Under the pieces are notes generated by a model, which made no database searches, was not told where the DNA came from, and was given only the letters and a program-made list of their open reading frames with translations. This document shows positions 653 to 26,769 of a DNA stretch of 35,536 nt, one piece after another; position 1 is the first letter of the stretch; each line of letters starts with the position of its first letter. Source of the DNA: a virus; the IMG/VR virus record IMGVR_UViG_3300046004_001048, positions 1 to 35,536 of that record. One strand, given 5' to 3'. A program made the position numbers and the translations under genes.

Positions 653-688
653 CAAAAATACAAAAAAAACTAATACAATAACGTAATT
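653..688 (-). promoter_or_regulatory. Phage promoter element, copy A (terS)
   Basis: Read on the minus strand: TTACGT, 4 nt, GTATTAG, 9 nt, then TATTTTTG, which fits the Bacteroidetes -7 box TANNTTTG. Six other copies in this window have the same spacing. Transcription should start near 646 and run into terS and terL. The element is bracketed by 14-bp inverted repeats (622-635 and 685-698). Confidence 0.8.
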
Positions 689-715
689 AATTGATATATT
701 TTAAAGTGAAGTGTA

Positions 716-994
716 TTAACTCGCTAAAGCCATAATCAAATCGTTGAACTCAATCAATACTGCTCTTTTATTATTTTGGCTTGATCTACCAATTAGAGAT
801 ATTAAAGGCTTTAAAGTTTTGACTGTATAAAAATCACCGTTTAAGTTAAAACCTACTGAGCAATTCATAACAACTTTTTTACTGAATCTGTTTGTTCTAT
901 AATTAAATAAACGTTTATCCTCTAAAAAAGCATAATCCGGGAAGCCTTCTATTTTCCACTTGCTTATATAAATTAAACTGTAATCTTTTTTCAT
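716..994 (-). CDS. Small protein with a NUMOD-like N-terminal pattern
   Basis: 92 residues, starting at the ATG at 994. Residues 12-50 (W-K-I-x-G-F-P-D-Y-x-F ... LFNYRTNRFSKK ... GFNLNGDFYTVKTLKPL) resemble the short NUMOD4-type DNA-binding pattern found next to HNH nucleases, where a W-x-I-x-G-[FY] start is followed by a [VL]-x-N-x-x-[TS]-x-R strand and a K-L-[HR]-x-L end. No nuclease motif is present. It is the last gene of the segment that starts at promoter B. A function beyond possible nucleic-acid binding cannot be given. Confidence 0.5.
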   Translation of the reverse strand: MKKDYSLIYISKWKIEGFPDYAFLEDKRLFNYRTNRFSKKVVMNCSVGFNLNGDFYTVKTLKPLISLIGRSSQNNKRAVLIEFNDLIMALAS

Positions 995-1058
995 TTAGAT
1001 TCTAACGTTTATAAATTGTAATTCAATTAGTTAGCTGTTTTTGTATTGTGTTTATTTG

Positions 1059-1180
1059 TAGTTGCAGTTTATATTGGCAGATTTTAAACGTTTACGCTAC
1101 CTTTTTTTAAACTTTTACTTGTTTCTCTTACTTGTTATTTAACTGCTCCACCTCCAAAACAAACAGCAACACTGGCTATA
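1059..1180 (-). repeat. Degenerate intergenic repeat, copy 1
   Basis: This lies between two genes of the accessory segment. Its core (1059-1116) matches 2934-2991 closely: both hold AAAAGTTTAA, GTAAACGTT and ATAAACT-CAACTA read on the minus strand. It shares ATCTGCCAATATAAA exactly with the copy near 1970. Read on the minus strand, a 19-codon frame (1135-1194; Met-Lys-Ala-Phe-Phe ... Cys-Phe-Gly-Gly-Gly-Ala-Val-Lys) enters the repeat. It may be a real micropeptide or the relic of a longer one. Confidence 0.55.
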
Positions 1181-1212
1181 AAAAAGGCTTTCATCTCGGT
1201 TATTATTAAAAT

Positions 1213-1674
1213 TCAGTTTTTTTGTATTGGGTTTTCATAAATATTTCCAATAACATCACATAATTCCATCCATTGTGAAGTTTGCATATCAGCGCAAGCC
1301 TCGTAAAATGGAGTTGTATCTCTGTAAAAATCATCACAATGTGAATTAATAACCAAACCTCCATTAACTCTAAAAACCTTATGAAACATTTGCTTTCCTA
1401 ATTCATTTTTATATTCTAAAATATCACCTTCGTAAATTTCCTTTCCGTTTTTGTCTTTTAGTCCTGTAAATTGCATTAATTCTAACTTAACATCTTCAGC
1501 AAAATCACTATGCCAATAACCACCTCCAGACCCTTTTCCTATTCCAAAAAAAGCCTGCATAGCCCAAACCTCCCTATTTCCTCCCCAAAAACCTCCCGTA
1601 TTTGTAAATTCAAAATCAGCAAAGTTTATCATAATATTTCCGTTCCACACTCTAAATTTAATTTCTCTATTCAT
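1213..1674 (-). CDS. YopX family protein
   Basis: 153 residues starting MNREIKFRVWNG, the usual YopX opening (M-R-E-I-K-F-R-x-W). The characteristic centre LMQFTGLKDKNGKEIYEGDIL and end VIGNIYENP are present. The function of YopX proteins is unknown; they are common in phages and prophages and fold as a small beta barrel. I reject the upstream GTG at 1716, because the ATG at 1674 begins exactly at the family start and clears the neighbouring gene that ends at 1691. An extra glycine-rich stretch (GIGKGSGGGYW) follows the N-terminal strand. Confidence 0.85.
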   Translation of the reverse strand: MNREIKFRVWNGNIMINFADFEFTNTGGFWGGNREVWAMQAFFGIGKGSGGGYWHSDFAEDVKLELMQFTGLKDKNGKEIYEGDILEYKNELGKQMFHKVFRVNGGLVINSHCDDFYRDTTPFYEACADMQTSQWMELCDVIGNIYENPIQKN

Positions 1675-1690
1675 AATTTTTAGTTTTAAT

Positions 1691-1897
1691 TTAATTACTA
1701 TTTTCAATTGTATCACATTTTATTTTAAACAGTAACGCATCTAAAGCAAATTCTTTTGTGCTAAAATGCCAAGGGATACTTTCAATGCCTGCCACAGAAA
1801 TAAAATGTGTCCAGAATGTTTTTGTTCTAAATAAGTTGCTTTTAGTTTTCATAAATTCAACCACAAATCCACGTTCTTTTTTTATAATTCTATACAT
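1691..1897 (-). CDS. Hypothetical small protein
   Basis: 68 residues from the ATG at 1897. Basic N-terminus (MYRIIKKERGF), no transmembrane helix and no cysteine motif. The aromatic-rich middle (TKTFWTHFISVAGIESIPWHF) suggests a small folded domain. I do not recognise it. It sits 16 bp ahead of the YopX gene and is probably co-transcribed with it. Confidence 0.6.
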   Translation of the reverse strand: MYRIIKKERGFVVEFMKTKSNLFRTKTFWTHFISVAGIESIPWHFSTKEFALDALLFKIKCDTIENSN

Positions 1898-1969
1898 TGT
1901 AAATTTATTATTTTAAATTTTTAATAATATTCGTTTTTTAATAATTCAGCCCTTTTCATAGCCTTGTAC

Positions 1970-2078
1970 GTTATAATTTATATTGGCAGATATTCCTCGC
2001 CAAAGGTCTTTTTACTTATTTCTTTTCGCTTTATTTGATACTGTTCTTGTGCTTTTCCAACACAAATAATAACTCCGC
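1970..2078 (-). repeat. Degenerate intergenic repeat, copy 2
   Basis: This fills most of the gap between the methyltransferase gene and the 68-residue gene. It shares ATCTGCCAATATAAA and the purine-rich AGTAAAA stretch with the copy at 1059. Read on the minus strand without a normal start codon it has an open frame (..GVIICVGKAQEQYQIK.. ending EEYLPI) that aligns in phase with the frames seen in the other two copies. Copies 1 and 3 carry stops in this frame, so the family may be decayed remains of one small gene. Confidence 0.45.
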
Positions 2079-2158
2079 GCAACCTTTACTTGTTTTTTAA
2101 GTTATTAAGCGTGTTAGTTACTTCATTCCAAATAATTTAAAAACTCCATCTACACCGC

Positions 2159-2818: not shown

Positions 2819-2933
2819 AACATTTTTTAAATTGTGAATATTCCGCAAGCGGTTTGCCTACGCTTTTTTAAATTATTTTTGTTTATTACTTCTCATTAAA
2901 ATTTATTTTACACCTCGCAAAGGTTATGCAAAT

Positions 2934-3053
2934 TAGTTGTAGTTTATAAAGGCTGACTTTTAACGTTTACAATACCGTTTGTTAAACTTTTTCTTCTGTC
3001 CTTTATTTGCTGTTTAAGCGTTAATGCCCCATTTACAAACACCAACTACGGCA
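2934..3053 (-). repeat. Degenerate intergenic repeat, copy 3
   Basis: The core 2934-2991 is the closest match to the core of the copy at 1059-1116. The whole element again occupies the gap just downstream of one gene (49-residue membrane peptide) and upstream of the next (methyltransferase). The in-phase reading (..AVVGVCKWGINA then stop) parallels the reading of copy 1 (..ASVAVCFGGGAVK then stop). Confidence 0.55.
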
Positions 3054-3066
3054 TAACCAAAAAAAA

Positions 3067-3216: not shown

Positions 3217-3285
3217 CTTTATTTAATTTAGTATTAATTAATCCGTTTCTTTGGTTATCCTTTAAAGTTGTAGTTAATTAAAGGT

Positions 3286-3903: not shown

Positions 3904-3905
3904 AA

Positions 3906-4028: not shown

Positions 4029-4043
4029 AATTTAATTTTTTAT

Positions 4044-4117: not shown

Positions 4118-4153
4118 TAAATGTAATAAAAAAACTAATACATCAACGTAGTT
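4118..4153 (-). promoter_or_regulatory. Phage promoter element, copy B
   Basis: On the minus strand: CTACGT, 4 nt, GTATTAG, 9 nt, TACATTTA (one mismatch to TANNTTTG). The spacing is identical to the other six copies. Transcription should start near 4111, directly into the structured leader. Confidence 0.75.
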
Positions 4154-4314: not shown

Positions 4315-6159
4315 TTAAAAAGGAATGTCGTCAGTTTCATTGTAAGCATCCCCGAAAGCGTCTAATAAGCTCCCTTGTTTTATTATCGGTTCTACTTCAA
4401 AATCGTTAGAGTTTATCCCCTTACGCATTTTATCAATTAAAGTAAAAGGAGAATAACCATTTATATAATATCTGTTATCCCGGATATTAAAAGTGATTTG
4501 ATCTACATTTTGCGGAATCCCTACGAGTTTTTGTTTCTTTATTTTTTGGCTGCCGAAAATTACATCTGGACTTTTAAAATCAATAGCCCTGTCCGGCCTC
4601 CAAACAAAGACAACGTTATCCGCTTTATCGGCAAAAGTACCCCCACCCTTTACATTGTTTAGTTCCGGCCTATAATAACGCCCGCCGTCCGCTTCATTCT
4701 TTTTAGCCGTTGTTTGATGAGCCACTAAATGAACGCTCACATCGTTTTCTACAGCAAAGCGCTTTAATTGTGTCATAAAACGGGATATGTATAAATCCTC
4801 GCGCTCGCCTGCTTTTAGTAAATGTTCTATCGTATTGTAAGGATCAATTATTAAAGTTCTAATCCCTTGTTTTTTCACTAAGTAACTTGCCTTTTCAAAA
4901 ATGGTATCAATTTTAAAATCGCGCTCTGGATAAATCAAAAAGAAGTAATCTTTTATATAATCAATACCCGTTTTATATTCTTCCTCAGTCATATAATTAT
5001 TTGAGTAATAAGGATCGCAGCTTTTACCGATATAAGTTTCTATTAAATCATTATAGAAGTCATCTAAAGGCATATTTTCCGGGCTAAAAACTGCTACTTT
5101 TGTGCCGTTGTTTACAGCCCGTATTAAAGAAAGTTGATTAAGCATTAAACTTTTACCCTCGTTTTGGTATCCCGTCCAAATAGTAACTTCCCCACCGCGC
5201 CAAGTCCACGCTTTATCTATTTCGTGAAAATAAGTACTCTCCCCGCGTTTCTGTCCGTTTCTATAACCGTTAAGCATAGAATCGTAACTATCCATAGCCG
5301 TAAAAATACCCTCGATTTTTACGTCCTTAGCTGTTTTAATCGTCTTTGCCAAACTTTCTTTTCCGTGCTTAATCAAATACTCGTTTGCATCCTTGCAGTC
5401 GTTAAAGTTTACTATTTTACATTTTTCAGCGCCAAACCTTCTAATCAATTCTGCTTGTCCTTTTTGGCCGGCCTCGTCGTTATCTACAGCAATAAAAATA
5501 GTATCTTTATTTTCGAAGTAGTTGTAATAATTGTCGATATAATCTAAATTCAATTCGCCTTTTAAATTAAAACCGTTTGGAACCGACACCACATTTTTAA
5601 CCCCGGCGCTATAAAAAGCCAATACGTCAAATTCACCCTCCACAATTACACAAGTTTTTTCCGTTGCGATATTATCTAAATTGTAAAATATCTTTTCAGA
5701 GCCTTTGTAAAGTTTAAAATTCTTTTGGCCGTCGCGGTATTTAACGTTTATCAATTCGCCGTTAAGAAAATAATCAAAACAAATACAATTTTCTTCTTTT
5801 GATGTTTGAGGCATCCACTCTTTTTGCTCGCGTATTTTAAGCGCTTTTAACGCATTAATATCTAATCCCCTTACGTTGACAGCGTAGTTTATTAGTTTAT
5901 CGCTAAAATCAGCTTTAATTGTCTTTACTATGGGTTTAATAAACATTTTATGGCTTTCTTTTTTCTTGAATGTATGTAACTGTATAACTTCCCCGCAATG
6001 GTTGCAACGTCCTAAGCCCGTATCCCAGAAAAGAGATAGACATTTATCGGTTTTCTTTTTGCGTGTTTCTGAGCAAATAGGGCAAGTACTTTCCTTTGCG
6101 CCTTCTTTGAGTTTGTATTGGTTAAAAATCTCAATTTCAAATCCGTTAATTTCTTCCAT
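4315..6159 (-). CDS. Replicative primase-helicase (T7 gp4 / Twinkle-like)
   Basis: 614 residues. The N-terminal zinc ribbon has CPIC (26-29) and CNHC (52-55). A TOPRIM-type primase core follows, with EGEFD (174-178) and DND (226-228). The C-terminal RecA/DnaB-type helicase has an unusual Walker A GYQNEGKS (330-337), Walker B TLIIDPYN (435-442) and HLVAHQTT (477-484). It would unwind the phage DNA and lay primers at the replication fork. The last residues NETDDIPF copy the acidic tip that SSB proteins use to bind partners. It follows the DUF6291 protein after a 4-bp gap and starts at the ATG at 6159. Confidence 0.93.
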   Translation of the reverse strand: MEEINGFEIEIFNQYKLKEGAKESTCPICSETRKKKTDKCLSLFWDTGLGRCNHCGEVIQLHTFKKKESHKMFIKPIVKTIKADFSDKLINYAVNVRGLDINALKALKIREQKEWMPQTSKEENCICFDYFLNGELINVKYRDGQKNFKLYKGSEKIFYNLDNIATEKTCVIVEGEFDVLAFYSAGVKNVVSVPNGFNLKGELNLDYIDNYYNYFENKDTIFIAVDNDEAGQKGQAELIRRFGAEKCKIVNFNDCKDANEYLIKHGKESLAKTIKTAKDVKIEGIFTAMDSYDSMLNGYRNGQKRGESTYFHEIDKAWTWRGGEVTIWTGYQNEGKSLMLNQLSLIRAVNNGTKVAVFSPENMPLDDFYNDLIETYIGKSCDPYYSNNYMTEEEYKTGIDYIKDYFFLIYPERDFKIDTIFEKASYLVKKQGIRTLIIDPYNTIEHLLKAGEREDLYISRFMTQLKRFAVENDVSVHLVAHQTTAKKNEADGGRYYRPELNNVKGGGTFADKADNVVFVWRPDRAIDFKSPDVIFGSQKIKKQKLVGIPQNVDQITFNIRDNRYYINGYSPFTLIDKMRKGINSNDFEVEPIIKQGSLLDAFGDAYNETDDIPF

Positions 6160-6163: not shown

Positions 6164-6856
6164 TTAAATTTGATTTGTTTTACCTATTCTTTTGGTCTTG
6201 AAATGCGACAGGTCTTGTTTGTTTAGCCAATGCGTGAAATGTCTTTTAAACTCCGCTTCATTTTGTTTCTGTTCCTGCATAGTAATTAAATGCGATTCGA
6301 AAGTGTCAATAAATGACATTACTAAATCTGGTTTAATGTGGCTTTGCATCGCTACCGTTTCCGTCCATTGTACATCTAATTTTGAATTTTGAGAAAAAGT
6401 TGCATTATTAATAATAATATATTTCTTTTCATTTACACTATCACTTACACTTACATTATCACTAACACTTACAGCGATGTTTGCGACAGAGTGCGATCGC
6501 ACTTTATCGGGTTGCGATGCTGTGCGACTTTTTGCGATAATTAATGCCTGCTCTAACGTAATTTCTTTTTGAAGAAATCTATTGTATAAATCTACGTTCC
6601 AACGTTTTAAATTACCTATTGCGCCGCTTTCGCTTTTCTTTTCTGTTTTACCTTCCCATTTTACCAAATCTCTTTTTAATTGCATTTTGATTGGTTCAAA
6701 GGCAATTTTTAAAAGTATGTTATCAGTTTCGGGGTTTTCATCATTTACATAAGCGAAAATATGTTTAAAGAGTTTTCCGGCCACATCATCCGGTAACTGA
6801 TTAATTAACCCCTGAGAGTCCGTGTACAAAACGAATGATTTTTTATCGACTGCCAT
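6164..6856 (-). CDS. DUF6291-type phage replication protein
   Basis: 230 residues. The N-terminus (MAVDKKSFVLYTDSQGLINQLPDDVAGKLFKHIFAYVND) is the DUF6291 signature. The C-terminus (FKRHFTHWLNKQ) resembles the DUF7833 end domain, whose relatives stand in the place of replication initiators or helicase loaders in Bacteroidetes phages. A low-complexity linker of repeated Ser-Val-Ser-Asp joins the two (about residues 129-141). It directly precedes the primase-helicase, which supports a loader role. It is transcribed from promoter C through a terminator-like leader. Confidence 0.8.
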   Translation of the reverse strand: MAVDKKSFVLYTDSQGLINQLPDDVAGKLFKHIFAYVNDENPETDNILLKIAFEPIKMQLKRDLVKWEGKTEKKSESGAIGNLKRWNVDLYNRFLQKEITLEQALIIAKSRTASQPDKVRSHSVANIAVSVSDNVSVSDSVNEKKYIIINNATFSQNSKLDVQWTETVAMQSHIKPDLVMSFIDTFESHLITMQEQKQNEAEFKRHFTHWLNKQDLSHFKTKRIGKTNQI

Positions 6857-6970: not shown

Positions 6971-7006
6971 CAAATATACAAATAAAACTAATACATTAAC
7001 GTAGTT
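6971..7006 (-). promoter_or_regulatory. Phage promoter element, copy C (replication unit)
   Basis: On the minus strand: CTACGT, TAAT, GTATTAG, 9 nt, TATATTTG, a perfect Bacteroidetes -7 box. The start should be near 6964. It drives the DUF6291 protein, the primase-helicase and the 41-residue gene. Confidence 0.82.
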
Positions 7007-7019: not shown

Positions 7020-7442
7020 TTATAAAGGTTTTCCAAAAGTTCTTATTTTAAAATTTTGGTAGTTTTTTAAGTACTCAGAATCGTAATTCATTAAGTTGTC
7101 GTGCTGCTTTAAATAGGAAATAATAGTACCGTGGTTTTTATTTAAGATGCTCCCCGTACGCTTTAAAGTATAGTTATATTCCTCTTTTAAATATTTTGAA
7201 ATAGCGAAGCGGCCTGTTACGTTTTCGCGCAATCTGGATGCGTCTAACACATCGCATTTAAAAGACTCATTAATCATTGTAATTAGTTCCGCAGGCGTTC
7301 TTGTAACGTTATAATCAACTCTGGTCGTTTTATCTATAAACTCATTTATAATACTTTCGCACACGTTTTTGATCTTCGGATCGTTTCTATGTTTTTTAAC
7401 AAAATTTGTTTTTATCTGTTCTAAAATTTCTAATGTTCTCAT
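7020..7442 (-). CDS. DnaA domain IV-like DNA-binding protein
   Basis: 140 residues. The C-terminal half (RENVTGRFAISKYLKEEY... GSILNKNHGTIISYLK) follows the DnaA C-terminal helix-turn-helix pattern, in which a R-x-x-x-x-R-x-[AI] helix is followed by a second motif resembling D-H-T-T-[VI]. No ATPase domain is present, so it may bind an origin or operator without being an initiator ATPase. It overlaps the VRR-NUC gene by 4 bp (ATGA) and is the last gene of the early operon. The ATG is at 7442. Confidence 0.7.
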   Translation of the reverse strand: MRTLEILEQIKTNFVKKHRNDPKIKNVCESIINEFIDKTTRVDYNVTRTPAELITMINESFKCDVLDASRLRENVTGRFAISKYLKEEYNYTLKRTGSILNKNHGTIISYLKQHDNLMNYDSEYLKNYQNFKIRTFGKPL

Positions 7443-10070: not shown

Positions 10071-10268
10071 TTAATTAATAATTTTATTAAAAGCGGCGGC
10101 CATTTGGTCGTTATCGCTTATGTAAATATTGTTGCATCTTAAAAGCCATTGATAAAATAATTGTTTGTTGTTTGTTGGTTTTACCGTTGCTTCAATTTGG
10201 TTGTTAATTCCATCCCTATTAACAAGGCCGGATAAATCTTTTTTGAAATTGGAATAGTAACAGTCCAT
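10071..10268 (-). CDS. Hypothetical small protein
   Basis: 65 residues starting MDCYYSNFKKDLSGLVNR at the ATG at 10268, which overlaps the stop of the previous gene by one base (TAATG). The frame is open for 24 more codons upstream but these lie inside the neighbouring gene. The end LFYQWLLRCNNIYISDNDQMAAAFNKI looks helical. Not recognised. Confidence 0.6.
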   Translation of the reverse strand: MDCYYSNFKKDLSGLVNRDGINNQIEATVKPTNNKQLFYQWLLRCNNIYISDNDQMAAAFNKIIN

Positions 10269-10450
10269 TACAAAGAGGTTAAAGCATCTAATAATAATCG
10301 GTATGTTTTTGTTTTTCCGATATGATAGTTTAGATTCCATTCAGCATCCTTTACCATTTTTTGTAACATTTCTGTTTTTTCAATTTCGCTATCAATAAAG
10401 CCTAATGTTGCACCTACTTCAATTTCTGGGTAATAAGTTTCTGTTTTCAT
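10268..10450 (-). CDS. Hypothetical small protein
   Basis: 60 residues from the ATG at 10450, helical with mixed charge (EIEKTEMLQKMVKDAEWNLNYHIGKTKTYRLLLDALTSL). Possible short coiled coil. Coupled to the next gene by a one-base TAATG overlap. Unknown function. Confidence 0.6.
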   Translation of the reverse strand: MKTETYYPEIEVGATLGFIDSEIEKTEMLQKMVKDAEWNLNYHIGKTKTYRLLLDALTSL

Positions 10451-11166: not shown

Positions 11167-11397
11167 TTAGTTTTTTAAAGAAACGTCTTTAATCTTGTTT
11201 TCGAATATGTCTTTATACGATAATTTCAATTCTTTTTTTATGATTTTTATCACTAAAATATTTCCTACTTTATTTTGCGATTTTCTGTCTGCCCACCTGT
11301 AAACATTGACTTCTCGCGTGTTAAATTTGTCAGCAATCAATTTTCTTAAATCATAATTTTGTCGGAGTACTGTAAATATTTCGTCTTTTATTATCAT
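11167..11397 (-). CDS. Cro-like helix-turn-helix regulator
   Basis: 76 residues starting MIIKDEIFTVLRQNYDLRKL. The segment RKLIADKFNTREVNVYRWADRK fits a small helix-turn-helix. It is the first gene leftward from the divergent control region, the classical position of Cro. An ATG at 11457 would add 20 residues but lies upstream of the predicted transcription start at the TATATTTG box (11449-11442), so I use 11397. Confidence 0.65.
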   Translation of the reverse strand: MIIKDEIFTVLRQNYDLRKLIADKFNTREVNVYRWADRKSQNKVGNILVIKIIKKELKLSYKDIFENKIKDVSLKN

Positions 11398-11419: not shown

Positions 11420-11449
11420 TTGTTATAACAATTTGTTAGCGCAAATATA
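11420..11449 (-). promoter_or_regulatory. Leftward early promoter with two operators
   Basis: TATATTTG on the minus strand (11449-11442) is a perfect -7 box for the early operon. Operator 1, TTGTTATAACAA (11420-11431), is a perfect 12-bp palindrome. Operator 2, TTGTTAGCGCAA (11433-11444), shares the half-site TTGTTA...CAA and overlaps the -7 box. Their centres are 13 bp apart, about one helical turn. Binding of the divergent XRE repressor here would shut down lytic genes. Confidence 0.65.
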
Positions 11450-11502: not shown

Positions 11503-11850
11503 ATGAAAACGGATATAAATAACGAGATTTTAATTAAAGCTGTTAAAAAATTACAGCTAAGATTTCCGGTTGCTGAAATTGAACGAGCCACCGGATACGG
11601 AAAAGGAAGTATCAGTAATTTTTTAAACAGCCAAAAGCCTGTTTCTGATAAATTTTTAGAAACATTCAGTAAAGCCTTTAATATTGATCTACGCGAGTTT
11701 GGTTATACAAAGGGATTAGAGCGTGTTAGTGAGCTAATCCCAGAGCATAAGGATAATGAAGGCCTAAAGGATAAATTAATCCAAAATTTGGAGCGCTACG
11801 TGCGCCGTTTAGAAGATGATATTGATAGAATGAGGAACGATAAGCAATAA
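11503..11850 (+). CDS. XRE-family repressor (CI-like role)
   Basis: 115 residues. Residues 21-62 (FPVAEIERATGYGKGSISNFLNSQKPVSDKFLETFSKAF) form an XRE helix-turn-helix. The C-terminus (LKDKLIQNLERYVRRLEDDIDRMRND) is a likely dimerising coiled coil. There is no peptidase domain, so RecA-driven self-cleavage is not expected and induction must work another way. It is divergent from the Cro-like gene across a 105-bp control region containing the palindromic operators. Confidence 0.78.
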   Translation: MKTDINNEILIKAVKKLQLRFPVAEIERATGYGKGSISNFLNSQKPVSDKFLETFSKAFNIDLREFGYTKGLERVSELIPEHKDNEGLKDKLIQNLERYVRRLEDDIDRMRNDKQ

Positions 11851-12028: not shown

Positions 12029-12346
12029 ATGGAAACTAAACAAATGGAAACAATAAGCGATTTAGATGCAAAAATGTTACAACTTTTTGAAGAACTAAAG
12101 AAAAGAGGCGTTTTAAAATATAAACGTGCTTTTTGCGCCGCAATGGGATTGCCTGAGCAAAACATAAATAACATCATAAACGGTAAAAACCATTTTAACC
12201 TGATACACGTTTTTAATATTTGTCGTTTTTACGGAATTAATGCCAATTGGATATTCGAAACTGAGGATAATTTGTTTATCTCAAAACCGTATAAAAAAAC
12301 CGTTACACAAATGTTACACAAAACAGGTGAAAAACAAGAAATTTGA
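12029..12346 (+). CDS. XRE-type helix-turn-helix protein next to attP
   Basis: 105 residues. The segment FCAAMGLPEQNINNIINGKNHFNLIHVFNICRFYGINANWIF has the flavobacterial XRE pattern with its Y-G-I-N-x-N-W-[IL] end. It lies between the repressor and the integrase, the position of an excisionase or an integration control protein. One integrase arm-type repeat (12301-12322) is inside its 3' coding end, so its translation and site occupancy may interfere with each other. Confidence 0.68.
   Translation: METKQMETISDLDAKMLQLFEELKKRGVLKYKRAFCAAMGLPEQNINNIINGKNHFNLIHVFNICRFYGINANWIFETEDNLFISKPYKKTVTQMLHKTGEKQEI
12301..12322 (+). other. Putative integrase arm site, left (P arm)
   Basis: Two direct copies of TTACACAAA spaced 11 bp apart, preceded by CG. 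The same block recurs at 12472-12493 with 21 of 22 bases identical. The pair brackets the attP core at 77 bp and 52 bp, matching the layout of lambda-type arm sites. Confidence 0.6.
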
Positions 12347-13879: not shown

Positions 13880-14770
13880 TTATCCCATTTTCATAGGCAG
13901 GGCAATCGGTAGCGTTCCTTTATTTAAAACCACACCGCAACCAATCGCGGGTTTCTTAAAATGCTTCCCATAGGCCATAGCATAACTTTTATTGTCAACT
14001 CCGCAACCCACTTGCATACCAAATATTATAAAGTTCGCTCCAACAGCATACTCTGCGTATAATTGCGTATGTAAATGCCCTTGCACTTGACTTTTTAACT
14101 CTGATTTCATTCTATTTTTAGCCGTCCCTCCCTCGCCGTGGTTAAAATCAACGTTGTGTAATTCTATATTTTCCACAAAATCCCACCCCTGAGTATTTAA
14201 AACGTCCTTATACTCACGAATCCATTGTTTTGATACGCCGGAACTATACGCTTTTCTATAAACTAACCTATCGTGGTTACCTATTATAACAGTCGCTTTA
14301 GGGAAAGTATGATACCAATCACTAATCATATCAATAGCGCGGTCTAATTCCTCGCCCGCTCCATATCCGTCAGGATCGCTTTCGTGATAACTTGAGTAGT
14401 GATTGTCGATTATATCACCTATAAAAATAACAGTACCGCAATTGTATAATTCCTGTTGATCTCTGCAAAACTTCAAATACTTGGGTAATGTAAACGGCGC
14501 GTGTAAATCTCCAATAACTAAAACATTATCAATATCCCCACCTTTAAACGGCGCAAACCTATTTCTTTTTTTAGGCTCTACGTTTGCGAAAATTGGCGTT
14601 TCTGTAGCTGTCGGTAAACCGTACTTTCTTAAAATAGCAATGTGTTTTCTTAGGCCGTCAATTTCGGAAGAAGAACCTTCCGGGAATATAATTTTTGCAA
14701 TACTTACATTACTTTCTTTTGTGTTGAAATATTTTATTGATTCAAAATTAAAGCGGTCATATTTGCACAT
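13880..14770 (-). CDS. Calcineurin-like metallophosphoesterase with an N-terminal extension
   Basis: 296 residues. The metal-binding signature is complete: GDLH (87-90), GDIID (118-122), GNHD (164-167), FNHGEGG (209-215) and GHLH (231-234). The first 60 residues (SNVSIAKIIFPEGSSSEIDGLRKHIAILRKYG) look like a helix-turn-helix, which would bring the enzyme to DNA. Phage members of this family cleave nucleotides, phosphodiesters or protein phosphates, so the substrate is open. It follows an Nmad1 gene, which may hint at nucleotide or DNA modification metabolism. Confidence 0.85.
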   Translation of the reverse strand: MCKYDRFNFESIKYFNTKESNVSIAKIIFPEGSSSEIDGLRKHIAILRKYGLPTATETPIFANVEPKKRNRFAPFKGGDIDNVLVIGDLHAPFTLPKYLKFCRDQQELYNCGTVIFIGDIIDNHYSSYHESDPDGYGAGEELDRAIDMISDWYHTFPKATVIIGNHDRLVYRKAYSSGVSKQWIREYKDVLNTQGWDFVENIELHNVDFNHGEGGTAKNRMKSELKSQVQGHLHTQLYAEYAVGANFIIFGMQVGCGVDNKSYAMAYGKHFKKPAIGCGVVLNKGTLPIALPMKMG

Positions 14771-14776: not shown

Positions 14777-15085
14777 TTATTTAGTTTTATTATCTTTTAA
14801 AATCATTGAAAGAAGCAGCGTGTAATTCGCTAAATCTAAAATACTATCTTGTATGCTTTCATTATTTGGGTTTGATGTTGCGTTAAGTAAAACACCTAAT
14901 CTCGCAACCTTAGTGGCCATAAGTGATAAACAGTTTAACTCTGGGGTTAATCCACAAATTGCACCCGCGAGTTTAAAGTTAGAAAGCCTATCTGTATTTG
15001 CGTAGTCGTTACCTTTACTAAACATAACGGATTCCATTTGCCCCGTCATCTCTTTAAAGACATTTACCTGTTCTTCTAAAGTCAT
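14777..15085 (-). CDS. Nmad1-type (DUF1599) protein
   Basis: 102 residues. The blocks MFSKGNDYANTDRLSNFKLA and ATKVARLGVLL...NNESIQDSILDLANYTLLL are the recognised DUF1599 / nucleotide modification associated domain 1 pattern. Members are all-helical and related to MazG-type folds, with an unproven link to modified nucleotides. It overlaps the spanin-like gene by 4 bp (ATGA). The ATG is at 15085. Confidence 0.82.
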   Translation of the reverse strand: MTLEEQVNVFKEMTGQMESVMFSKGNDYANTDRLSNFKLAGAICGLTPELNCLSLMATKVARLGVLLNATSNPNNESIQDSILDLANYTLLLSMILKDNKTK

Positions 15086-15579
15086 AAAGCGAAAATTTTA
15101 GCCTTATATTTCCAAACAAAATAAATCGCTATAGGAATAAGTAACCATAAAAAAGGTAAAAAAGGATTTGATTTTCTTTGTGTATTGTTTGTTTTGGTTT
15201 CGGCCTTTTCTGTAGTGATTGTGTCGGCCTTTTTAACGCTGTTATCCTTAACCGTTGCTTTTTCCGCAATAGTTGTATTCACTTTCTTTTTACGGGTTGT
15301 TACGGAGGCGTTTTTGTAGGTTTTGCCGTTTACAATAATTTCCTTTTCGTTGTCGATTGGTTTTACTTCTACTTCTTCCACTTCTTCGATTACAACAGTT
15401 TTAACTTCTTTGTTTGTTGCAATATCTTTCTTTTCTGTTGCTGTTTTTTCAGTTAGTAAAGATTCCTTGACAACTGATTTTTGAACTTTGCGGGATCCGC
15501 AACCCAACAACATCAAAAATATAGAGATAAAAACGAGTGTTATTATTAATTTTTCTAAAAAGTTATTTTTCAAAGACAT
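15082..15579 (-). CDS. Candidate unimolecular spanin (lipoprotein with C-terminal membrane anchor)
   Basis: 165 residues. The N-terminal signal ends in a lipobox LMLLGC (Cys27), giving an outer-membrane lipoprotein. The C-terminal NPFLPFLWLLIPIAIYFVW (about 138-156) is a transmembrane helix with a basic tail. The periplasmic middle is a charged, threonine/lysine/glutamate-rich rod. This bipartite anchoring is the hallmark of u-spanins such as phage T1 gp11, which fuse inner and outer membranes at lysis. It lies close to the endolysin and holin-like genes. Sequence identity to a known spanin is not shown. Confidence 0.65.
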   Translation of the reverse strand: MSLKNNFLEKLIITLVFISIFLMLLGCGSRKVQKSVVKESLLTEKTATEKKDIATNKEVKTVVIEEVEEVEVKPIDNEKEIIVNGKTYKNASVTTRKKKVNTTIAEKATVKDNSVKKADTITTEKAETKTNNTQRKSNPFLPFLWLLIPIAIYFVWKYKAKIFAL

Positions 15580-15582: not shown

Positions 15583-15783
15583 TTAAGGAGTTACGTTATT
15601 ATTAATTTTATCCTTTATAACTTCCTCTATAATTACGCAATCTTGAAAAAACTCCGCGCGCTCAAAACGGGTTAATGTTTCGTTTAATTCAGCGAAAGGC
15701 AACGCATACAAATACGCCTTAAAAGCGTTAATACTTGTAAACTCTTGCCGTAAATTATAAGGATTGGTTTTAAATAGGTTCAT
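15583..15783 (-). CDS. Hypothetical small protein
   Basis: 66 residues from the ATG at 15783 (MNLFKTNPYNLRQEFTSINAFKAYLYAL...). Mixed charge, helical, no motif recognised. It is the first gene after promoter copy D, with a leader of only about 13 nt, and is followed at 3 bp by the spanin-like gene. Confidence 0.6.
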   Translation of the reverse strand: MNLFKTNPYNLRQEFTSINAFKAYLYALPFAELNETLTRFERAEFFQDCVIIEEVIKDKINNNVTP

Positions 15784-15802: not shown

Positions 15803-15838
15803 CAAATATAAACAAAAAACTAATACATTAACGTAATA
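15803..15838 (-). promoter_or_regulatory. Phage promoter element, copy D
   Basis: On the minus strand: TTACGT, TAAT, GTATTAG, 9 nt, TATATTTG. It reads into the 66-residue gene, the spanin-like gene, Nmad1 and the phosphoesterase. No terminator-like leader is present here. Confidence 0.82.
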
Positions 15839-17710: not shown

Positions 17711-20700
17711 TTAATAATTTTTTAAGGCTGTTAAAAATATAGGTGTGGTTGTATTCACGCAATATATTTGTATGTAATTTGTTTTTGTTCCATCAAAATT
17801 ATATACATCAGACACATTAACACCACTTGGAAAGGTTAATGTATAATTTCCACTAACTACTAATGTAATTGTTTTACAAGGTGTTATGTTTGAAAAAGTA
17901 AGTACTGTATTGGCTGTTAAAACTTTTATAAACTGAACACCTAATGACCAATCAATATTTAACCCTGTTCCTAAATTAACTTCTGCTTTTAATTCAGGAC
18001 TTAATTTTAAAACACTTATAGATTCATTTTTTATATAACCACTATTATAATTTGAATTAAATTTTTCAATAATTTTACGTGCTATAAATGAATGTCCTAA
18101 ATCGTTAGGGTGCGTTAAATCATTTGTATAAATTGACTGCATTTTATAGTCATAACTATTTTTCATTAAGCTATAAATATCTAAATACTCTAAATTATTT
18201 AAAATAGCCACTTCAATAAGTGCAGTAGCATAAGTACTTGAATTATAATTTATTAAAGGCGAAGGCGTTATTAGATAAATTTTACAATTTATACTTGTTA
18301 ATGAATCAATAATTGTTTGTAAATTAGCTTTGTATGTCGCTATTGAAATACTATTTTGTGTTTCATTTACGCCTAAATAAATTATAGCCGCTTTAGGAAT
18401 ATTTTGTGTTGTAATTTGAGTTAACCCATTTATAACTTTAGCGGCAGTTTCACCAACACCACCAAAAATATCCCAATTTCTTTCTAAAGATATATTTTCA
18501 ACAAATGAATTTTTAAAAATTGATGCACCATAACCAACAGTAATACTATCACCAATATATGCCAATCCATTTATAAGTCCATTATTTGTAATTTTATAAT
18601 TTGTTATTTTTGAAGTGCCACCTAAAATATATAACCCTAAACTACCTACATCAGGAATTAATTTATTACCTGATCCAGCGCTAATGTCAGTAGCATAAGT
18701 ATATGAAACTGTTGTTGAAGTACTTAAAGTTATATTATAAAAAGTTGCAATAAATTTATTATCAATTCTTTCTAAGGTTAACTTTAATGTATCGCCAATA
18801 TTAAATAAAATAGATGTAGATGTTGCTAAAATAATAGTTTGACCGTGTGTGTACATTATTATTTTTCCACTATCAGCACTATTATCCAACACAATTTTTA
18901 CATCAAGCGTAGTTATACTAACATCAGTTTTAACACTTAGCGCAACACCGTAACTTGTAGCTGTTTTTTCGCTCGGAATTATAGTTAGTTCTTGTAACCA
19001 TCTTGTCACTAAAAAAACTGTATTATAATTAAAATATTTTGTCCAAGTATTACTCCCTTGAATGATATTTAAACCGCTTGAAATATTATAATCGGTAGTA
19101 TTTGCCATTGTTGTTGTTAAATCAGACGGTAATCCACCTGAAACAAAACTATTATCACTTACAACACCTACAATTCCGTTTGGTTTTATTGCTGTTATAT
19201 CGTTATTAACTGCCGTTCCTCCACTAATAACAATATCCCCACTTCCTAAAATTGAAGTTGAATTAATTGTTTTAATATTTGTGCCACTTACTAAAGTCGC
19301 CTGCTTGCCGTTTACGGTTGCAATTAAATCTGCTATCTGTTTTTGCAGTTTACCAAACGCTTCTAAAATAGTATCGGTTGCAACAACGGCTGTGCTTGTT
19401 AAAAAGGAAATACCTGTTAAAACAGTGGCTAAAGCACCACCACTTGCGGGATGTGTATGGCTTGTAATTTCACCAATTAACTTAGCTTCAATTTCAGCTT
19501 TTGTGATGTCGCTGTTTTTTTGGGCGTCTGTTGGTGCGTGTGCGCTTTGTGAATGGTCGTAAGCGGTTTTACCCCTGTCGCCTCTGTAAGCTGTTGTATC
19601 GGTTTCACCTAATGTAACGCCTGCACCTATAACTAAATCCCCGCTTCCTAAAATGGTTGCTCCGTTAATGGTTTTAATGTTTGTTGCGCTTACTAAAGTG
19701 TTTTGCTTTAAATTTAAAGCGGTTTGTGTTGCTATAGAAACGGGTTTGTTTGCATCGCTTGTATTACTCGCATTACCTAAACCCACTTGTGCTTTAGTAA
19801 CGTTATGAGGATTTGCGTAGTTTGTTAAATGTGCTATTAAGTTTGCACCGTTTGTGGTTATCCAACTTATAGAACTATTCCACGAAGAAACCACAATGCT
19901 TGTAATAGCATTTAAAACGCTTAAATTTGTGTGTGTGTGATCCGCTACTATATTAATATCTTTACGAACTACTTTAATATCTAATTCACCGCTTTTAACC
20001 GTACAGTTCGCATCTGATAAAACAAATATTTCACCCGGATAGTCTTTAATATCTAACGTATCAATACTAAAGTCGCGCGTAGGGTTAACTTTAATACTTC
20101 CCGCAACCTTTAAACTGCCATTATAAACTTGTTTTGTTACGGGAAAATCTGATCCAATCCCTAATTTTATGTAAATTTGAAACTCTTGGTTTGCTACGGT
20201 TGTGGTTATTTCAATAGCGGGTATAATAGTTATTAAATCCCCTATTGAAGTTTGAGAAAAGTCCAATTGGTTTAATGTAGTATCCCACATTGACGTAACG
20301 CCGTAAGGAGCGTTTAAAATGTTTGTAGTATCATCTAAGGTATCGTTTGTTATTTTCTTCTCTACGCCCGACAAAACGGTTAAAGGTGTTGTTTGTGTCG
20401 CTAAATCTACATAATGAAACGAACCAACGGAGCTAAACATTTCAACGGGTTTGTTTTTAATGTAATCGCTTGCCATTGTGTCGGCCTGTTCCCAATCCGG
20501 CTGTATATTTGCTTCGCCTCCTAAAGTTAAATTATCTAACTTTTCTTTATCCTCATTTGTGAAGTCGTTGGCGCTTAAATCTTTTCCCGTTACTTTATCA
20601 ACTTTATTGTTGTAAAGTTCGGTATTCATATCGTTTTGATGGCCAAACGCGGTTCTTAACTCGTCGCCTAAGCCGTCATTAGGTGCTGAAATATTGTGAT

Positions 20701-20713
20701 TAATTTGTGCCAT
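17711..20713 (-). CDS. Tail fibre with an SGNH/GDSL esterase domain
   Basis: 1000 residues. The N-terminus (DGLGDELRTAFGHQNDMNTELYNNKVDKV) is a phage fibre attachment pattern. The middle has two copies of a strand block TLVS-[AG]-TNIKTIN...ILGSGD-[LI]-VI. From about residue 715 to 885 lies an SGNH hydrolase: GDSI (block I), FGGVGET (II), YLGVNE (III, Asn-Glu in place of Asn-Asp) and DLTHPNDLGH (V). It probably deacetylates or otherwise trims host surface polysaccharide. A small beta domain ends the chain. It is coupled to its neighbours with gaps of 0-1 bp. Confidence 0.85.
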   Translation of the reverse strand: MAQINHNISAPNDGLGDELRTAFGHQNDMNTELYNNKVDKVTGKDLSANDFTNEDKEKLDNLTLGGEANIQPDWEQADTMASDYIKNKPVEMFSSVGSFHYVDLATQTTPLTVLSGVEKKITNDTLDDTTNILNAPYGVTSMWDTTLNQLDFSQTSIGDLITIIPAIEITTTVANQEFQIYIKLGIGSDFPVTKQVYNGSLKVAGSIKVNPTRDFSIDTLDIKDYPGEIFVLSDANCTVKSGELDIKVVRKDINIVADHTHTNLSVLNAITSIVVSSWNSSISWITTNGANLIAHLTNYANPHNVTKAQVGLGNASNTSDANKPVSIATQTALNLKQNTLVSATNIKTINGATILGSGDLVIGAGVTLGETDTTAYRGDRGKTAYDHSQSAHAPTDAQKNSDITKAEIEAKLIGEITSHTHPASGGALATVLTGISFLTSTAVVATDTILEAFGKLQKQIADLIATVNGKQATLVSGTNIKTINSTSILGSGDIVISGGTAVNNDITAIKPNGIVGVVSDNSFVSGGLPSDLTTTMANTTDYNISSGLNIIQGSNTWTKYFNYNTVFLVTRWLQELTIIPSEKTATSYGVALSVKTDVSITTLDVKIVLDNSADSGKIIMYTHGQTIILATSTSILFNIGDTLKLTLERIDNKFIATFYNITLSTSTTVSYTYATDISAGSGNKLIPDVGSLGLYILGGTSKITNYKITNNGLINGLAYIGDSITVGYGASIFKNSFVENISLERNWDIFGGVGETAAKVINGLTQITTQNIPKAAIIYLGVNETQNSISIATYKANLQTIIDSLTSINCKIYLITPSPLINYNSSTYATALIEVAILNNLEYLDIYSLMKNSYDYKMQSIYTNDLTHPNDLGHSFIARKIIEKFNSNYNSGYIKNESISVLKLSPELKAEVNLGTGLNIDWSLGVQFIKVLTANTVLTFSNITPCKTITLVVSGNYTLTFPSGVNVSDVYNFDGTKTNYIQIYCVNTTTPIFLTALKNY

Positions 20714-21181
20714 TTAGTACCAAGGGATAAAGTTAGTTGTTTCGCTTTGCGCTTCCTCTGCTCCGTATTCTGGAATAGTGATCGTTGTCATAAAATCTTT
20801 AAAATTACTCTCGTAACTCAATGCGATAGCCTCGTAATTTTTAGACAATTGATTTACTTTTACATCGCTTGAATTTGTAGCGTTTTCGGCGCTTAATTTA
20901 AAGACACCCCCATTACTAACTTTATCAACAGATAAACTCAAATAAATTGAGGCTGTAAAAAACGCTGTCATATAAACTACATAGTCATTATAAATAGTTA
21001 AATAAGCGCCTGAGAGCGTGTCTAAATCGGCGTAAATCTTATCGTATAACTTCGTGCCTAAAACGCGTTTAACTTGCGTTGTTTGCGCTGTATTGATAGC
21101 GGGTTTAATAGAATCGCTGTCAATGTTTCCGTTAAAGCCTGTTAGGGCTGCTATATCGTTGGGTTGCAAAAATAATTTCAT
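20714..21181 (-). CDS. Head-tail connector-like protein (DUF6712-like)
   Basis: 155 residues, helical (SIKPAINTAQTTQVKRVLGTKLYDKIYADLD... YVVYMTAFFTASIYL) with a flexible acidic end. The length, the helical bundle with a Q-x-x-x-V-K-R-V-L-G pattern and the place directly after the portal gene (TAATG overlap) agree with the connector proteins annotated as DUF6712 in flavobacterial phages. Assigned largely on context. Confidence 0.55.
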   Translation of the reverse strand: MKLFLQPNDIAALTGFNGNIDSDSIKPAINTAQTTQVKRVLGTKLYDKIYADLDTLSGAYLTIYNDYVVYMTAFFTASIYLSLSVDKVSNGGVFKLSAENATNSSDVKVNQLSKNYEAIALSYESNFKDFMTTITIPEYGAEEAQSETTNFIPWY

Positions 21182-23445: not shown

Positions 23446-23457
23446 ATATATAAGGTT

Positions 23458-23484: not shown

Positions 23485-23499
23485 ATATTAATTTAATTA

Positions 23500-24543: not shown

Positions 24544-24549
24544 AGATTG

Positions 24550-25515
24550 TTATTTTTTGTTTTCTTTATTAAATTTCATTTTTTCAAAATTGCTCATTTC
24601 AGCATAAGATTTTTTAGCTTCAATAGGTAAGTTTGGGATAGAGGCTGCAGCGGGTGTTTGGCTCGCCATTGTTACCAACGCTTCATCTGCTTTTACTTTT
24701 TCGGCTTCAATGTTCACGAGTTCCGCTTTTAGTTTTGCGTTTTCTTCAAGTAAAGCATCGTACTTTAATTGTAGTTCATCAGCTTCCGGGGCCTCTGTGT
24801 CCTTTACTGCATCTGGTGTATTAGGAACGTTTTCAGAGGCCGCTTCTGCTTTAATTTCTTCTGGTTCCGTTACTTCAACTTCCGCAACGGGTGCATCTTC
24901 TTCCGGCTTTTCATCTTCCTTTTTAGGATCAGCCGCAAAAAATGCTTTTAAATTATCCCACAAACCCTGTGGTGTTTTTTCGATTTCCATATTTATAATT
25001 TGATTGTTATTAATTACTTCCTTAAATAATACATTGCCTTCAATGCTAAGGCCGTTTAAATTCCCGTCTTTACATTGGCTCCATACTTCGTCATTATCAA
25101 CTTTAAACCCCATAACCAAATCCCCTTTTTTAGTTACCAAACCCAACTCATTAGATTTGTCATTAGCAGGGTTTGCCACGATCCAACTTTCAAAAGGAAA
25201 TACGCCCTCGGTGTTAAATTCCGCATGGTCTATATTGGTTCCGCTATTGGCGTTTGTTCTGAAATAGTTTTGCTGAAATTTTTCAATCGTTTCTGCTGTA
25301 TAAAAAACATTGGCGGGTTCGCCTTGTATGTTGTTTCTGTAGATTAGTTTATCCGGAGACATAGCAACGGAAAAGATTTCCCTTTTTTCTTCATTGGTAA
25401 AGTATAAAGGGGCTTCTATTTCCTCCGCAAACTTTACCATTGTCATTTCTAAGGCGGGATTTTTAACCAAACTAACTTTAAATTTTTCTTTAAATGTTAT
25501 TTCGTATATTTTCAT
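24550..25515 (-). CDS. Prohead serine protease with scaffold-like C-terminus (XkdF-like)
   Basis: 321 residues. The protease half has His97 in NIDHAEF and Ser157 in GLSIEG, preceded by MGFKVDNDEVWSQCKDGNLN, the XkdF-type pattern. The second half is acidic (PEEDAPVAEVEVTEPEEIKAE) and then coiled coil (DELQLKYDALLEENAKLKAEL...), typical of scaffolds. An internal ATG at 24990 (Met176, MEIEKTPQGLW) could start a separate scaffold from the same gene. It would cut itself and the capsid protein during head maturation. Expression seems to pass a terminator lying 14 bp upstream of the ATG. Confidence 0.85.
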   Translation of the reverse strand: MKIYEITFKEKFKVSLVKNPALEMTMVKFAEEIEAPLYFTNEEKREIFSVAMSPDKLIYRNNIQGEPANVFYTAETIEKFQQNYFRTNANSGTNIDHAEFNTEGVFPFESWIVANPANDKSNELGLVTKKGDLVMGFKVDNDEVWSQCKDGNLNGLSIEGNVLFKEVINNNQIINMEIEKTPQGLWDNLKAFFAADPKKEDEKPEEDAPVAEVEVTEPEEIKAEAASENVPNTPDAVKDTEAPEADELQLKYDALLEENAKLKAELVNIEAEKVKADEALVTMASQTPAAASIPNLPIEAKKSYAEMSNFEKMKFNKENKK

Positions 25516-25601
25516 AGATTATAAACACAAAAAGCACTACCCAATTTAATAGGTAGTGCTTTTTCATTAGATGTTAGGGTGGTATATATCATCATATACA
25601 T
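25512..25601 (-). CDS. Candidate leader peptide read through the terminator
   Basis: 29 codons (MYMMIYTTLTSNEKALPIKLGSAFCVYNL) beginning 5-8 nt after the expected start of transcript E. The frame crosses the whole 13-bp terminator hairpin, and its TGA overlaps the ATG of the protease gene (ATGA). Ribosomes translating it would hold the hairpin open. No ribosome binding site is visible and chance cannot be excluded. Confidence 0.4.
   Translation of the reverse strand: MYMMIYTTLTSNEKALPIKLGSAFCVYNL
25529..25564. terminator. Strong bidirectional terminator at the head of the capsid operon
   Basis: A perfect 13-bp stem AAAAAGCACTACC / GGTAGTGCTTTTT with a 10-nt loop and T-runs on both strands. 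It lies between promoter E and the protease gene, so transcripts from E must read through it to express head genes. Confidence 0.88.
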
Positions 25602-25612
25602 TACAATAGTTA

Positions 25613-25648
25613 CAAATATACAAAATAAACTAATACAACAACGTAATA
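25613..25648 (-). promoter_or_regulatory. Phage promoter element, copy E (head genes)
   Basis: On the minus strand: TTACGT, TGTT, GTATTAG, 9 nt, TATATTTG. It is very similar to copy F 166 bp away, including flanking AATAGTTACAA on the plus strand, so E and F look like a tandem duplication. The gap 25516-25828 holds no conventional gene: only E, F, two terminators, the leader frame and the short F transcript. Confidence 0.82.
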
Positions 25649-25681
25649 AATGTAATTATTTTTAATTTATTTTTAAGGTAT

Positions 25682-25772
25682 AAAAAAACCACCCCGAAAG
25701 GTGGCTCATCAAATGAAAAAAAGACCAATTTAATCCGCAAGAAAATATTTATTAATCAAAATTTAATAGTTA
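25682..25772 (-). ncRNA. Predicted short phage RNA from promoter F
   Basis: Promoter F should start near 25772. An intrinsic terminator follows at 25706-25682 (AGCCACC / GGTGGTT stem, 6-nt loop, seven T). This gives an RNA of about 90 nt with no convincing reading frame; the longest are a 9-codon frame with a TTG start and one that begins inside the terminator. It could be a regulatory RNA or a decayed duplicate of leader E. Confidence 0.5.
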
Positions 25773-25778
25773 CAAGGT

Positions 25779-25814
25779 CAAATGTACAAAATAAATTAAT
25801 ACAATAACGTAATT
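25779..25814 (-). promoter_or_regulatory. Phage promoter element, copy F
   Basis: On the minus strand: TTACGT, TATT, GTATTAA (one change from the family), 9 nt, TACATTTG. It has no protein gene before the next terminator. Confidence 0.78.
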
Positions 25815-25828
25815 ATTTAAAATAATTT

Positions 25829-26701
25829 TTAAGCACAAAGTTTATTTCCCTTTTTAATATTATCTACTGCCCAAAGTGGTTGAAAATTAGTGTAATGGTT
25901 TAGTTTTAATAAGTGTTCCTCATCTTCTGCGCGTGATACAGGATAAATATGGTCTAAGTGCCATTCTCCTAAATTATTCCAATCCATTCCATTAGTAAAT
26001 TGTTTTTCTAAATACTCTTTAAATTCATCAAATGAACAACCCAATATTTGATTTATTTTAGATTTTTTGGAATATCCTTTGTTTTTAATTGAAACATAAA
26101 TTAAACCCCTTATATTACCTGTTAATTTAAATAAATGGTCTACTTCCCTTCTTTGTTTTGAATACACTCTTCGATATTCTTTTATCTCTTCTTTATTATT
26201 TAACCTCCATTGATTCGTACGTTCTATTACTTGTTCTTTATTCTCCAGTCGATATTGCTTTGTGTATTCACTTATCGCTTCTTTATTATTCAATCTCCAT
26301 TGATTCATACGTTCTGTTATTTTTTCTACATTTTTTAAATGATATTTTTTACATCTTTGTTGGTTTTTTTCAGGATGTAACAAATGATATTTTTTCCTTT
26401 TTTCTTTAATTTCTTCTTTATTAATTAACTGATATTGCTTTACCGTCTCTTTTACTTTTTCTTTATTATTTGACTTCCATTTATTTGTACTCTCTTTTAC
26501 TTTTTCTTTATTACATAAACGGTATTTTTTTGCAGATTCGTTTATTTTTATTTTATTGTCTAAACGATATTGCTTTTTTAGTTCGTTTATTTCTTCTTTA
26601 TTATTTAACTGATATTTTTTTTGATATTCTTTTATAACCTCTTTGTTATTTAAACGATATTGTTTTCTTTGTGCTTTTCTTTCCTCTATACTTTGCGCCA
26701 T
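25829..26701 (-). CDS. HNH-type endonuclease with eleven 15-residue repeats
   Basis: 290 residues. Residues 15-179 are eleven unbroken repeats of 15 residues, consensus [YW]-R-L-N-N-K-E-x-[IV]-K-E-x-x-K-[KQ]. They are very basic and probably form a helical rod or DNA-binding array. The C-terminal domain has an HNH-like core: WHLDHIYPVSRA (247-258), HYTNFQPLWAVDN (269-281), KKGNK (283-287). It is a free-standing nuclease with its own promoter (copy G), placed between the tail and head modules. Roles could be a homing-type nuclease or DNA degradation or packaging. A repeat-expanded linker is unusual. Confidence 0.8.
   Translation of the reverse strand: MAQSIEERKAQRKQYRLNNKEVIKEYQKKYQLNNKEEINELKKQYRLDNKIKINESAKKYRLCNKEKVKESTNKWKSNNKEKVKETVKQYQLINKEEIKEKRKKYHLLHPEKNQQRCKKYHLKNVEKITERMNQWRLNNKEAISEYTKQYRLENKEQVIERTNQWRLNNKEEIKEYRRVYSKQRREVDHLFKLTGNIRGLIYVSIKNKGYSKKSKINQILGCSFDEFKEYLEKQFTNGMDWNNLGEWHLDHIYPVSRAEDEEHLLKLNHYTNFQPLWAVDNIKKGNKLCA
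26165..26659 (-). repeat. Eleven tandem 45-bp coding repeats
   Basis: These encode the 15-residue units of the HNH protein. The units keep their exact length throughout but vary in sequence. Units 7 and 8 have drifted most (HLLHPEK, HLKNVEK). Such an array can gain or lose units by slippage or recombination without a frameshift. Confidence 0.85.
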
Positions 26702-26733
26702 AATATTAGTTTTTAATTGGTTAAGTTAAAAAC

Positions 26734-26769
26734 CAAATATACAAATAAAACTAATACTATAACGTAATT
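26734..26769 (-). promoter_or_regulatory. Phage promoter element, copy G (HNH gene)
   Basis: On the minus strand: TTACGT, TATA, GTATTAG, 9 nt, TATATTTG. The start should be near 26727, with a leader of about 25 nt to the HNH ATG. Confidence 0.82.

Follow-up and report, generated by a model that had tools for sequence, protein, structure and literature searches.

What drives transcription from a set of phage promoters in which the usual -33 box has been exchanged for a fixed two-part block? The question is raised by the virus record IMGVR_UViG_3300046004_001048 of IMG/VR, a stretch of 35,536 nucleotides that was analysed over its whole length and is referred to here as the window (G000 among the IMG/VR records compared, all of which are given G-numbers). 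An initial annotation had placed seven minus-strand copies of a promoter-like element in this window. All seven were found where they had been placed, with the sequence YTACGTT-NNN-GTATTAG-TT-N7-TANNTTT[GA]; five matched the 18-base pattern of that annotation exactly, those at 4118 and 25779 had one mismatch each, and the next best match in the window had five mismatches. A search with the TACGTT version of the pattern, allowing up to three mismatches, returned seven matches as against 0.10 +/- 0.33 in dinucleotide shuffles, none of which reached seven. The element is a real, phage-specific, multi-copy promoter element, and the sites most likely constitute an activator-dependent class of middle and late promoters.

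Architecture of the element

The arrangement of the two-part core and the -7 box proved as rigid as had been claimed, TACGTT-N3-GTATTAG-N9-TANNTTTG being kept in all seven window copies, and invariance extended to the sixth T of TACGTT and to the TT located two bases past TTA. Exact copies are present on the minus strand at 653-685 (TACGTTATTGTATTAG-N9-TATTTTTG), 6971-7003 (TACGTTAATGTATTAG-N9-TATATTTG), 15803-15835, 25613-25645 and 26734-26766. The single mismatch of the copy at 4118-4150 (TACGTTGATGTATTAG-N9-TACATTTA) falls on the last base of the -7 box, and in the copy at 25779-25811, which stands in tandem with that at 25613-25645, TTAA replaces TTAG. The partly dyadic form TACGTTAATGTA was present in two copies (6971 and 15803), as had been stated. 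The -7 box is the host-type TANNTTTG in six of the seven copies and TACATTTA in the remaining one. When TANNTTTG is taken as -12 to -5, the core would extend from about -37 to -22, with its centre at about -30.

The initial annotation had also reported that the -33 box is missing. TTTG and TTG were looked for at N17-23 upstream of the -7 box, and TTTG was found in none of the seven copies, as stated; TTG was absent from five of them, with the copies ending at 4150 and 25645 having one at N18, and for TTG the claim thus holds only in part. In Flavobacterium johnsoniae, where the -7 box spans -12 to -5, transcription begins 4-5 nt beyond it, and the -33 element is barely visible genome-wide (PMC6847099). 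The missing -33 box can thus offer only mild support for an activator, weaker than the initial annotation had assumed.

Placement of the copies along the genome

All seven copies are noncoding, and each is located at the start of a leftward transcription unit. Together they head all leftward units but the early operon, which bears out the view that nearly all units outside the early region are preceded by the element; no copy was found in the early operon (11397 to 7020) or in the lysogeny module. The copy ending at 685 heads the operon of small and large terminase and virion genes (341-619, 34191-35399 and further genes), that at 4150 a segment of small genes and a methyltransferase gene, and that at 7003 the replication operon with DUF6291 (6164-6856) and the primase-helicase (4315-6159). 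A site comparable to that at 4150 follows the replication genes in G001, G002, G005, G010 and G014, and the promoter at 7003 has an orthologous counterpart in G002. The copy at 15803-15835 heads the genes at 15583-15783, 15082-15579, 14777-15085 and 13880-14770, while that at 25645 heads the gene at 24550-25515 and the capsid/portal operon, which is also preceded by the copy at 25811. The last copy, at 26766, heads an HNH-like gene (25829-26701).

A terminator scan identified terminator-like hairpins just upstream of the copies at 25645 and 26766, the latter copy lying directly 3' of the hairpin at 26810-26779. The copy at 25811 is located about 100 nt upstream of the hairpin at 25707-25686. 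Within 25529-25811 each of the tandem promoters, at 25811 and 25645, precedes a terminator-like hairpin (25707-25686 and 25564-25529, respectively), followed by the next gene. These promoter-hairpin pairs may give rise to short RNAs of about 80-100 nt or to an attenuated leader of the capsid operon; the region gave no match in Rfam.

Positions 1-300 of the window recur at 35031 with 98% identity, and the genome is therefore read as circular, with a length of about 35,030 bp. Its gene content, which includes Erf, SSB, NinB, primase-helicase, methyltransferase, terminase, portal and a chitinase-like endolysin, together with a plus-strand module of two helix-turn-helix (HTH) proteins and an integrase, reads as that of a temperate tailed phage. 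A host among the Flavobacteriia is indicated by distant DNA matches and by the promoter type, and BLAST searches with the element and with NinB revealed no close relative among isolated phages. Three direct repeats, GTTGCAGTTTATATTGGCAGATTTT, were also noted in the small-gene segment at 1061-1085, 1970-1994 and 2936-2960, with a spacing of about 0.9 kb.

Occurrence in other phages and in host genomes

A scan of related phage genomes, as suggested in the initial annotation, detected the element in nine other IMG/VR records. Several exact or near-exact copies each were found in G001, G002, G005, G006 and G010, and one or more in G004, G007, G008 (a near match) and G009; two further carriers, G422 and G423, were reached via a linked gene. 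The core TACGTT-NNN-GTATTAG is rigid in these relatives and its distance to the -7 box varies (N7, N9, N10 or N11), with a few weaker sites in which the core lies N16-18 away. At the promoter of the 15082-type operon in L063 (G007 5028) and L067 (G010 24018), weak cores were seen 18 nt upstream of the -7 box, a shift of about one helical turn from the usual 9 nt. A separate observation concerns G001 (L055:1600-1640), where a virion gene and the early cassette adjoin directly, overlapping by ATGA, and a lysogeny module is missing; this junction is either a real rearrangement or the product of a chimeric contig.

Host genomes gave a different picture. When 84,980 prokaryote species were scanned with the promoter pattern, only two matches were returned, both of them promoter-unlike. 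In 397 Flavobacteriaceae genomes the core occurred 15 times, compared with about 110 matches to a reversed control pattern (a manual count from the table), and none of the 15 had a -7 box correctly placed. The initial annotation had regarded abundance in host DNA as an argument against a phage regulon; with two species matches and 15 core matches, the element is not abundant there, and it is phage-specific and not a host element.

Exchange of the core in relatives

Two relatives identified through NinB, L072/G013 and L074/G014 (79% and 78% identity to the query, respectively), were found to be without the TACGTT-type core. A motif-free search upstream of their TANNTTTG boxes revealed other cores in the same register, namely seven copies of GTAGTAY-N3-RTATTAC, a 17-bp inverted repeat, in G014, and three copies of YTWAACC-N3-GNNTTAR in G013. 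The right half is largely common to the three types (GTATTA in the window, RTATTA in G014 and NNTTA in G013) and the left half differs most. Among the core sites of G000, G013 and G014, TTTG was found at N17-23 in 0 of 17 and TTG in 2 of 17.

The exchange could be followed at orthologous genes, in a comparison of element types that draws on few lineages and in which counts are not independent. The leader gene at 15583 in G000 and its orthologs in G002 and G005 are preceded by TACGTT-type sites, and the ortholog in G014 by one of the TAGTAY type. Likewise, the first gene of the capsid operon (24550-25515) is orthologous in G000 and G013, with an AACC-type site in the latter, and the HNH gene is orthologous in G000 and G014, with a TAGTAY-type site in the latter; DUF6291 is orthologous behind the sites in G000 and G002. 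G014 is a 31-kb relative whose virion genes are mostly outside the families shared with the window, indicating that the element type tracks the early region and not the virion genes. Neither a lysogeny module nor a gene for an integrase or a repressor could be recognised in G014, and its sites are therefore unlikely to be operators of a prophage repressor; by analogy, those of the window would be unlikely to be so either. The concerted change of a whole promoter set finds its best explanation in a DNA-binding activator that the phage encodes and that acts at a 7-3-7 site near -30.

A more distant relative, G018, has canonical TTTG-N19 in three of its five repeated promoters. The repeated promoters of G018 and G019 were considered as further elements and set aside, several being canonical TTTG- or TTG-N19 promoters, and a scan with the G013-type core was discarded after it gave 94 matches that were mostly single and chance-like.

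A proposed activator and its alternatives

Based on phage-only occurrence, multi-copy placement and coordinated switching in relatives, a phage-specific trans-acting regulator working through the block is well supported. We infer that the phage itself encodes this regulator, and that its action is to activate and not to repress. Taken as a whole, the seven sites are probably best explained as middle and late promoters at which a temperate phage of Flavobacteriia depends on an activator. The TANNTTTG -7 box would be recognised by the RNA polymerase of the host, carrying its primary sigma factor, while the 7-3-7 core YTACGTT-NNN-GTATTAG would be bound by the activator, substituting for the contact of sigma with the -33 box. 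Transcription of the early operon would start from an element-free promoter, its products would include the activator, and the latter would then turn on the replication, virion and accessory operons together. The activator would occupy the -33 place and contact sigma, a location favoured by the centre of the core near -30, where the MotA box is positioned, and would bind as a dimer, as suggested by the inverted repeat of G014. The initial annotation had envisaged a phage activator or a sigma-like factor; its phage-specific regulator is supported, whereas the sigma-like alternative is not, given that the family scans run on the window proteins returned no sigma match and that the -7 box does not differ from that of the host.

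Several observations weigh against an activator. The -33 element is weak in Flavobacterium and the early promoter of the window likewise has no TTG at N17-23, so that the absence of a -33 box does not in itself require one, and a repressor, too, would be expected at a dyad that overlaps the promoter core. No DNA-binding candidate was found to be common to every element-carrying record, the early genes of G001 (a possibly chimeric contig) do not include the Cro-like gene described below, and the gene just before the replication promoter encodes different proteins in each phage.

It is unlikely that the core is instead an operator at which a repressor of the phage, be it CI-, Cro- or late-acting, silences the middle and late promoters. 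Its inverted-repeat symmetry, clear in G014 and partial in the window, and its overlap with the promoter core are what such an operator would show, the window encodes two HTH lysogeny proteins and a Cro-like protein, and an 'LPEQN' segment of the HTH protein encoded at 12029 is conserved only in TACGTT-type phages. However, CI probably acts at another palindrome, that of the early promoter, seven equivalent sites are present in G014 although it has no lysogeny module, and the near invariance of the sites, mostly without a -33 element, suits positive control better.

Rather less likely is a homogenised strong sigma-ABfr promoter, in which RNA polymerase alone reads an extended spacer with no extra factor. 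The -7 box is near consensus, AT-rich motifs at -18 and -28 are usual in F. johnsoniae promoters (PMC6847099), and two copies have a TTG at N18, all of which would fit. In contrast, some 14 fixed bases including G and C far exceed known sigma needs, the sequence is not used by host genomes, and relatives switch the whole set to other sequences with the -7 box unchanged. A host-encoded transcription factor that binds the core, with element types following the host genus, could indeed differ between genera, but host promoters with the site would then be expected, and the finding of none in the 84,980 species or among the 15 core matches in Flavobacteriaceae renders it very improbable. Finally, a phage sigma factor or phage RNA polymerase reading the whole element can practically be dismissed: the element precedes the gene of a Sigma70_r2 protein in G002, and this protein has copies in G004 and G005 and homologues in G015 and G016, but the PHROGs and Pfam scans run on the window revealed neither a sigma nor an RNA polymerase gene, phmmer with the G002 protein found none in the window, G010, G013 or G014, and the -7 box is that of the host sigma-ABfr.

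The Sigma70-region-2-like protein of G002 (L057:5739-6272; G002 24639-25172) heads the terminase-side operon of that phage, and its gene is itself located behind a TACGTT-type promoter in both G002 and G005.

Candidate genes for the activator

The best lead for the activator is the first early gene (11167-11397, minus strand), which encodes a small Cro-like HTH protein and is a candidate by co-occurrence. Its start is an internal ATG, assigned from the position of the -7 box downstream of which it lies. Outside the window, the family has members in just five IMG/VR contigs, and all six records carry the element, three having been identified previously as carriers. The newly reached contigs G422 and G423 carry it with one mismatch and are close to G002, so that the co-occurrence amounts to about three independent lineages. 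A likely recognition segment, NVxxWAxRK, is largely conserved; the AlphaFold model is all-helical and of low confidence, too poor to interpret. The small regulators of the lysogeny and early segments had been proposed as the factor in the initial annotation. Of these, CI-like genes are unlikely to be the factor in general, as G014 keeps an equivalent system without a lysogeny module, while the Cro-like gene retains its candidacy.

A secondary candidate is the second HTH protein of the lysogeny module (12029-12346, plus strand; Pfam HTH_3 just under the cut-off). Its relatives of at least 53% identity all occur with the element and those of at most 44% without it; this gene type is absent from G014. 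The last gene before the promoter at 7003 (7020-7442, minus strand) encodes a small protein that appears to resemble the DNA-binding domain of DnaA, a likeness read from its sequence and from its phmmer relatives L086 and L120, and that gave no match in Pfam or PDB. It is not favoured, and is not the common factor, since no homologue was found in G001, G002 and G010, which share the element. Relatives of this protein are scattered among other NinB-bearing phages (L081, L086, L098, L120 and L124).

Other genes were considered and rejected. The small protein encoded at 10071-10340 is present in all seven early regions with the three element types and in none of four comparison phages, but its similarity does not follow element type and no DNA-binding family was found for it; its AlphaFold model was likewise of low confidence and too poor to interpret. 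NinB, Erf and SSB are shared, yet are equally close in phages with other elements. A ribbon-helix-helix-like protein encoded before the terminase promoter is present in G010, G013 and G014, truncated in G002 and missing from the window, and the sigma-like protein of G002 was excluded as the factor by its absence from the window in the phmmer search.

Several small early proteins of related phages, a number of them HTH-like, share a C-terminal tail, [ILV]x[EQ]SK[LMI]. They include G010 34416-34769 (L067:14616-14969), G014 27008-27217 (L153:11508-11717), G015 26206-26463, G016 29079-29330 and G018 20419-20715, and the tail also occurs in very short proteins of G002 and L090. These may possibly be regulators with a shared peptide motif.

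The early control region

The early promoter has the -7 box TATATTTG (11442-11449, minus strand) with no element upstream. The element was not present between 11397 and 11503, where a palindrome, GTTATAAC (11422-11429, minus strand), is found instead; this is a probable repressor operator, unrelated to the element. The palindrome is kept in G002, G009, L292 and L293, and G010 has another palindrome in its place. The HTH protein encoded at 11503-11850 (plus strand; Pfam HTH_3 just under the cut-off) is likely the CI-type repressor of the GTTATAAC operator. The recognition helix of 11503-type proteins changes with the palindrome, G010 differing in both. This joint change, with the conservation of GTTATAAC, indicates that the palindrome and not the element is likely the immunity operator, and the 11503 protein was rejected as the element factor on the ground that its recognition helix follows this operator.

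Relation to known systems and significance

In the middle promoters of T4, the contact at -35 is replaced by MotA, which acts together with sigma remodelled by AsiA at a MotA box near -30 (PMC2988021). Here, too, a phage element would lie near -30 in the -35-type place with the host -10-type box kept, it is present in many copies that would act together, and the early promoter is without it. Unlike the MotA box, TGCTTtA, which is read by a monomer, the element has a two-part core of 16-17 bp that shows dyad symmetry in relatives and reads TACGTT-NNN-GTATTAG/A in each of the seven copies, and the polymerase is of the Bacteroidota type. PHROGs and Pfam scans of most window proteins gave no match to the MotA or AsiA families, which small diverged proteins could escape.

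The Mor site of phage Mu has its centre at -43.5 and comprises two 5-bp inverted repeats in a 16-bp element (PMC4390567). The Mu Pm promoter and those of Mor and C resemble the present sites in having a two-part site for a phage activator (here a proposed one) upstream of a host-type -10 box; the centre is, however, at about -30 here and not near -43, and no Mor/C match was found in the families scanned. The two-part site of lambda CII lies astride the -35 region and replaces a good -35 box, as would the present core, but consists of direct repeats, TTGC-N6-TTGC, in place of the two different halves with N3 seen here or the inverted repeats of G014. Compared with Bacteroidota primary-sigma promoters (-33 TTTG and -7 TANNTTTG), the -7 box has the same form, whereas TTTG is found in none of the seven copies and a fixed core of 14 bases is present instead. 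A non-exhaustive search of the literature revealed no phage-encoded activator or activator-dependent promoter class for phages of Bacteroidota.

We tentatively suggest that small and rapidly evolving activators, encoded by this phage lineage, may take over the primary sigma factor of Bacteroidota at -30, with their specificity swapped as a unit and the promoter set rewritten in register, a possibility that falls somewhat short of an even chance. If true, sigma appropriation would have a counterpart in Bacteroidota, in which the pairs of activator and promoter are naturally orthogonal. Since the primary sigma factor of the phylum is divergent, a phage protein acting at -33 would be a direct probe of it. 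Three promoter sets in one register (TACGTT, TAGTAY and AACC types) would provide ready-made, possibly orthogonal promoters for Flavobacterium genetics. They would also make the factor findable by simple co-expression, and would show how a phage can alter the specificity of a regulator across its whole regulon.

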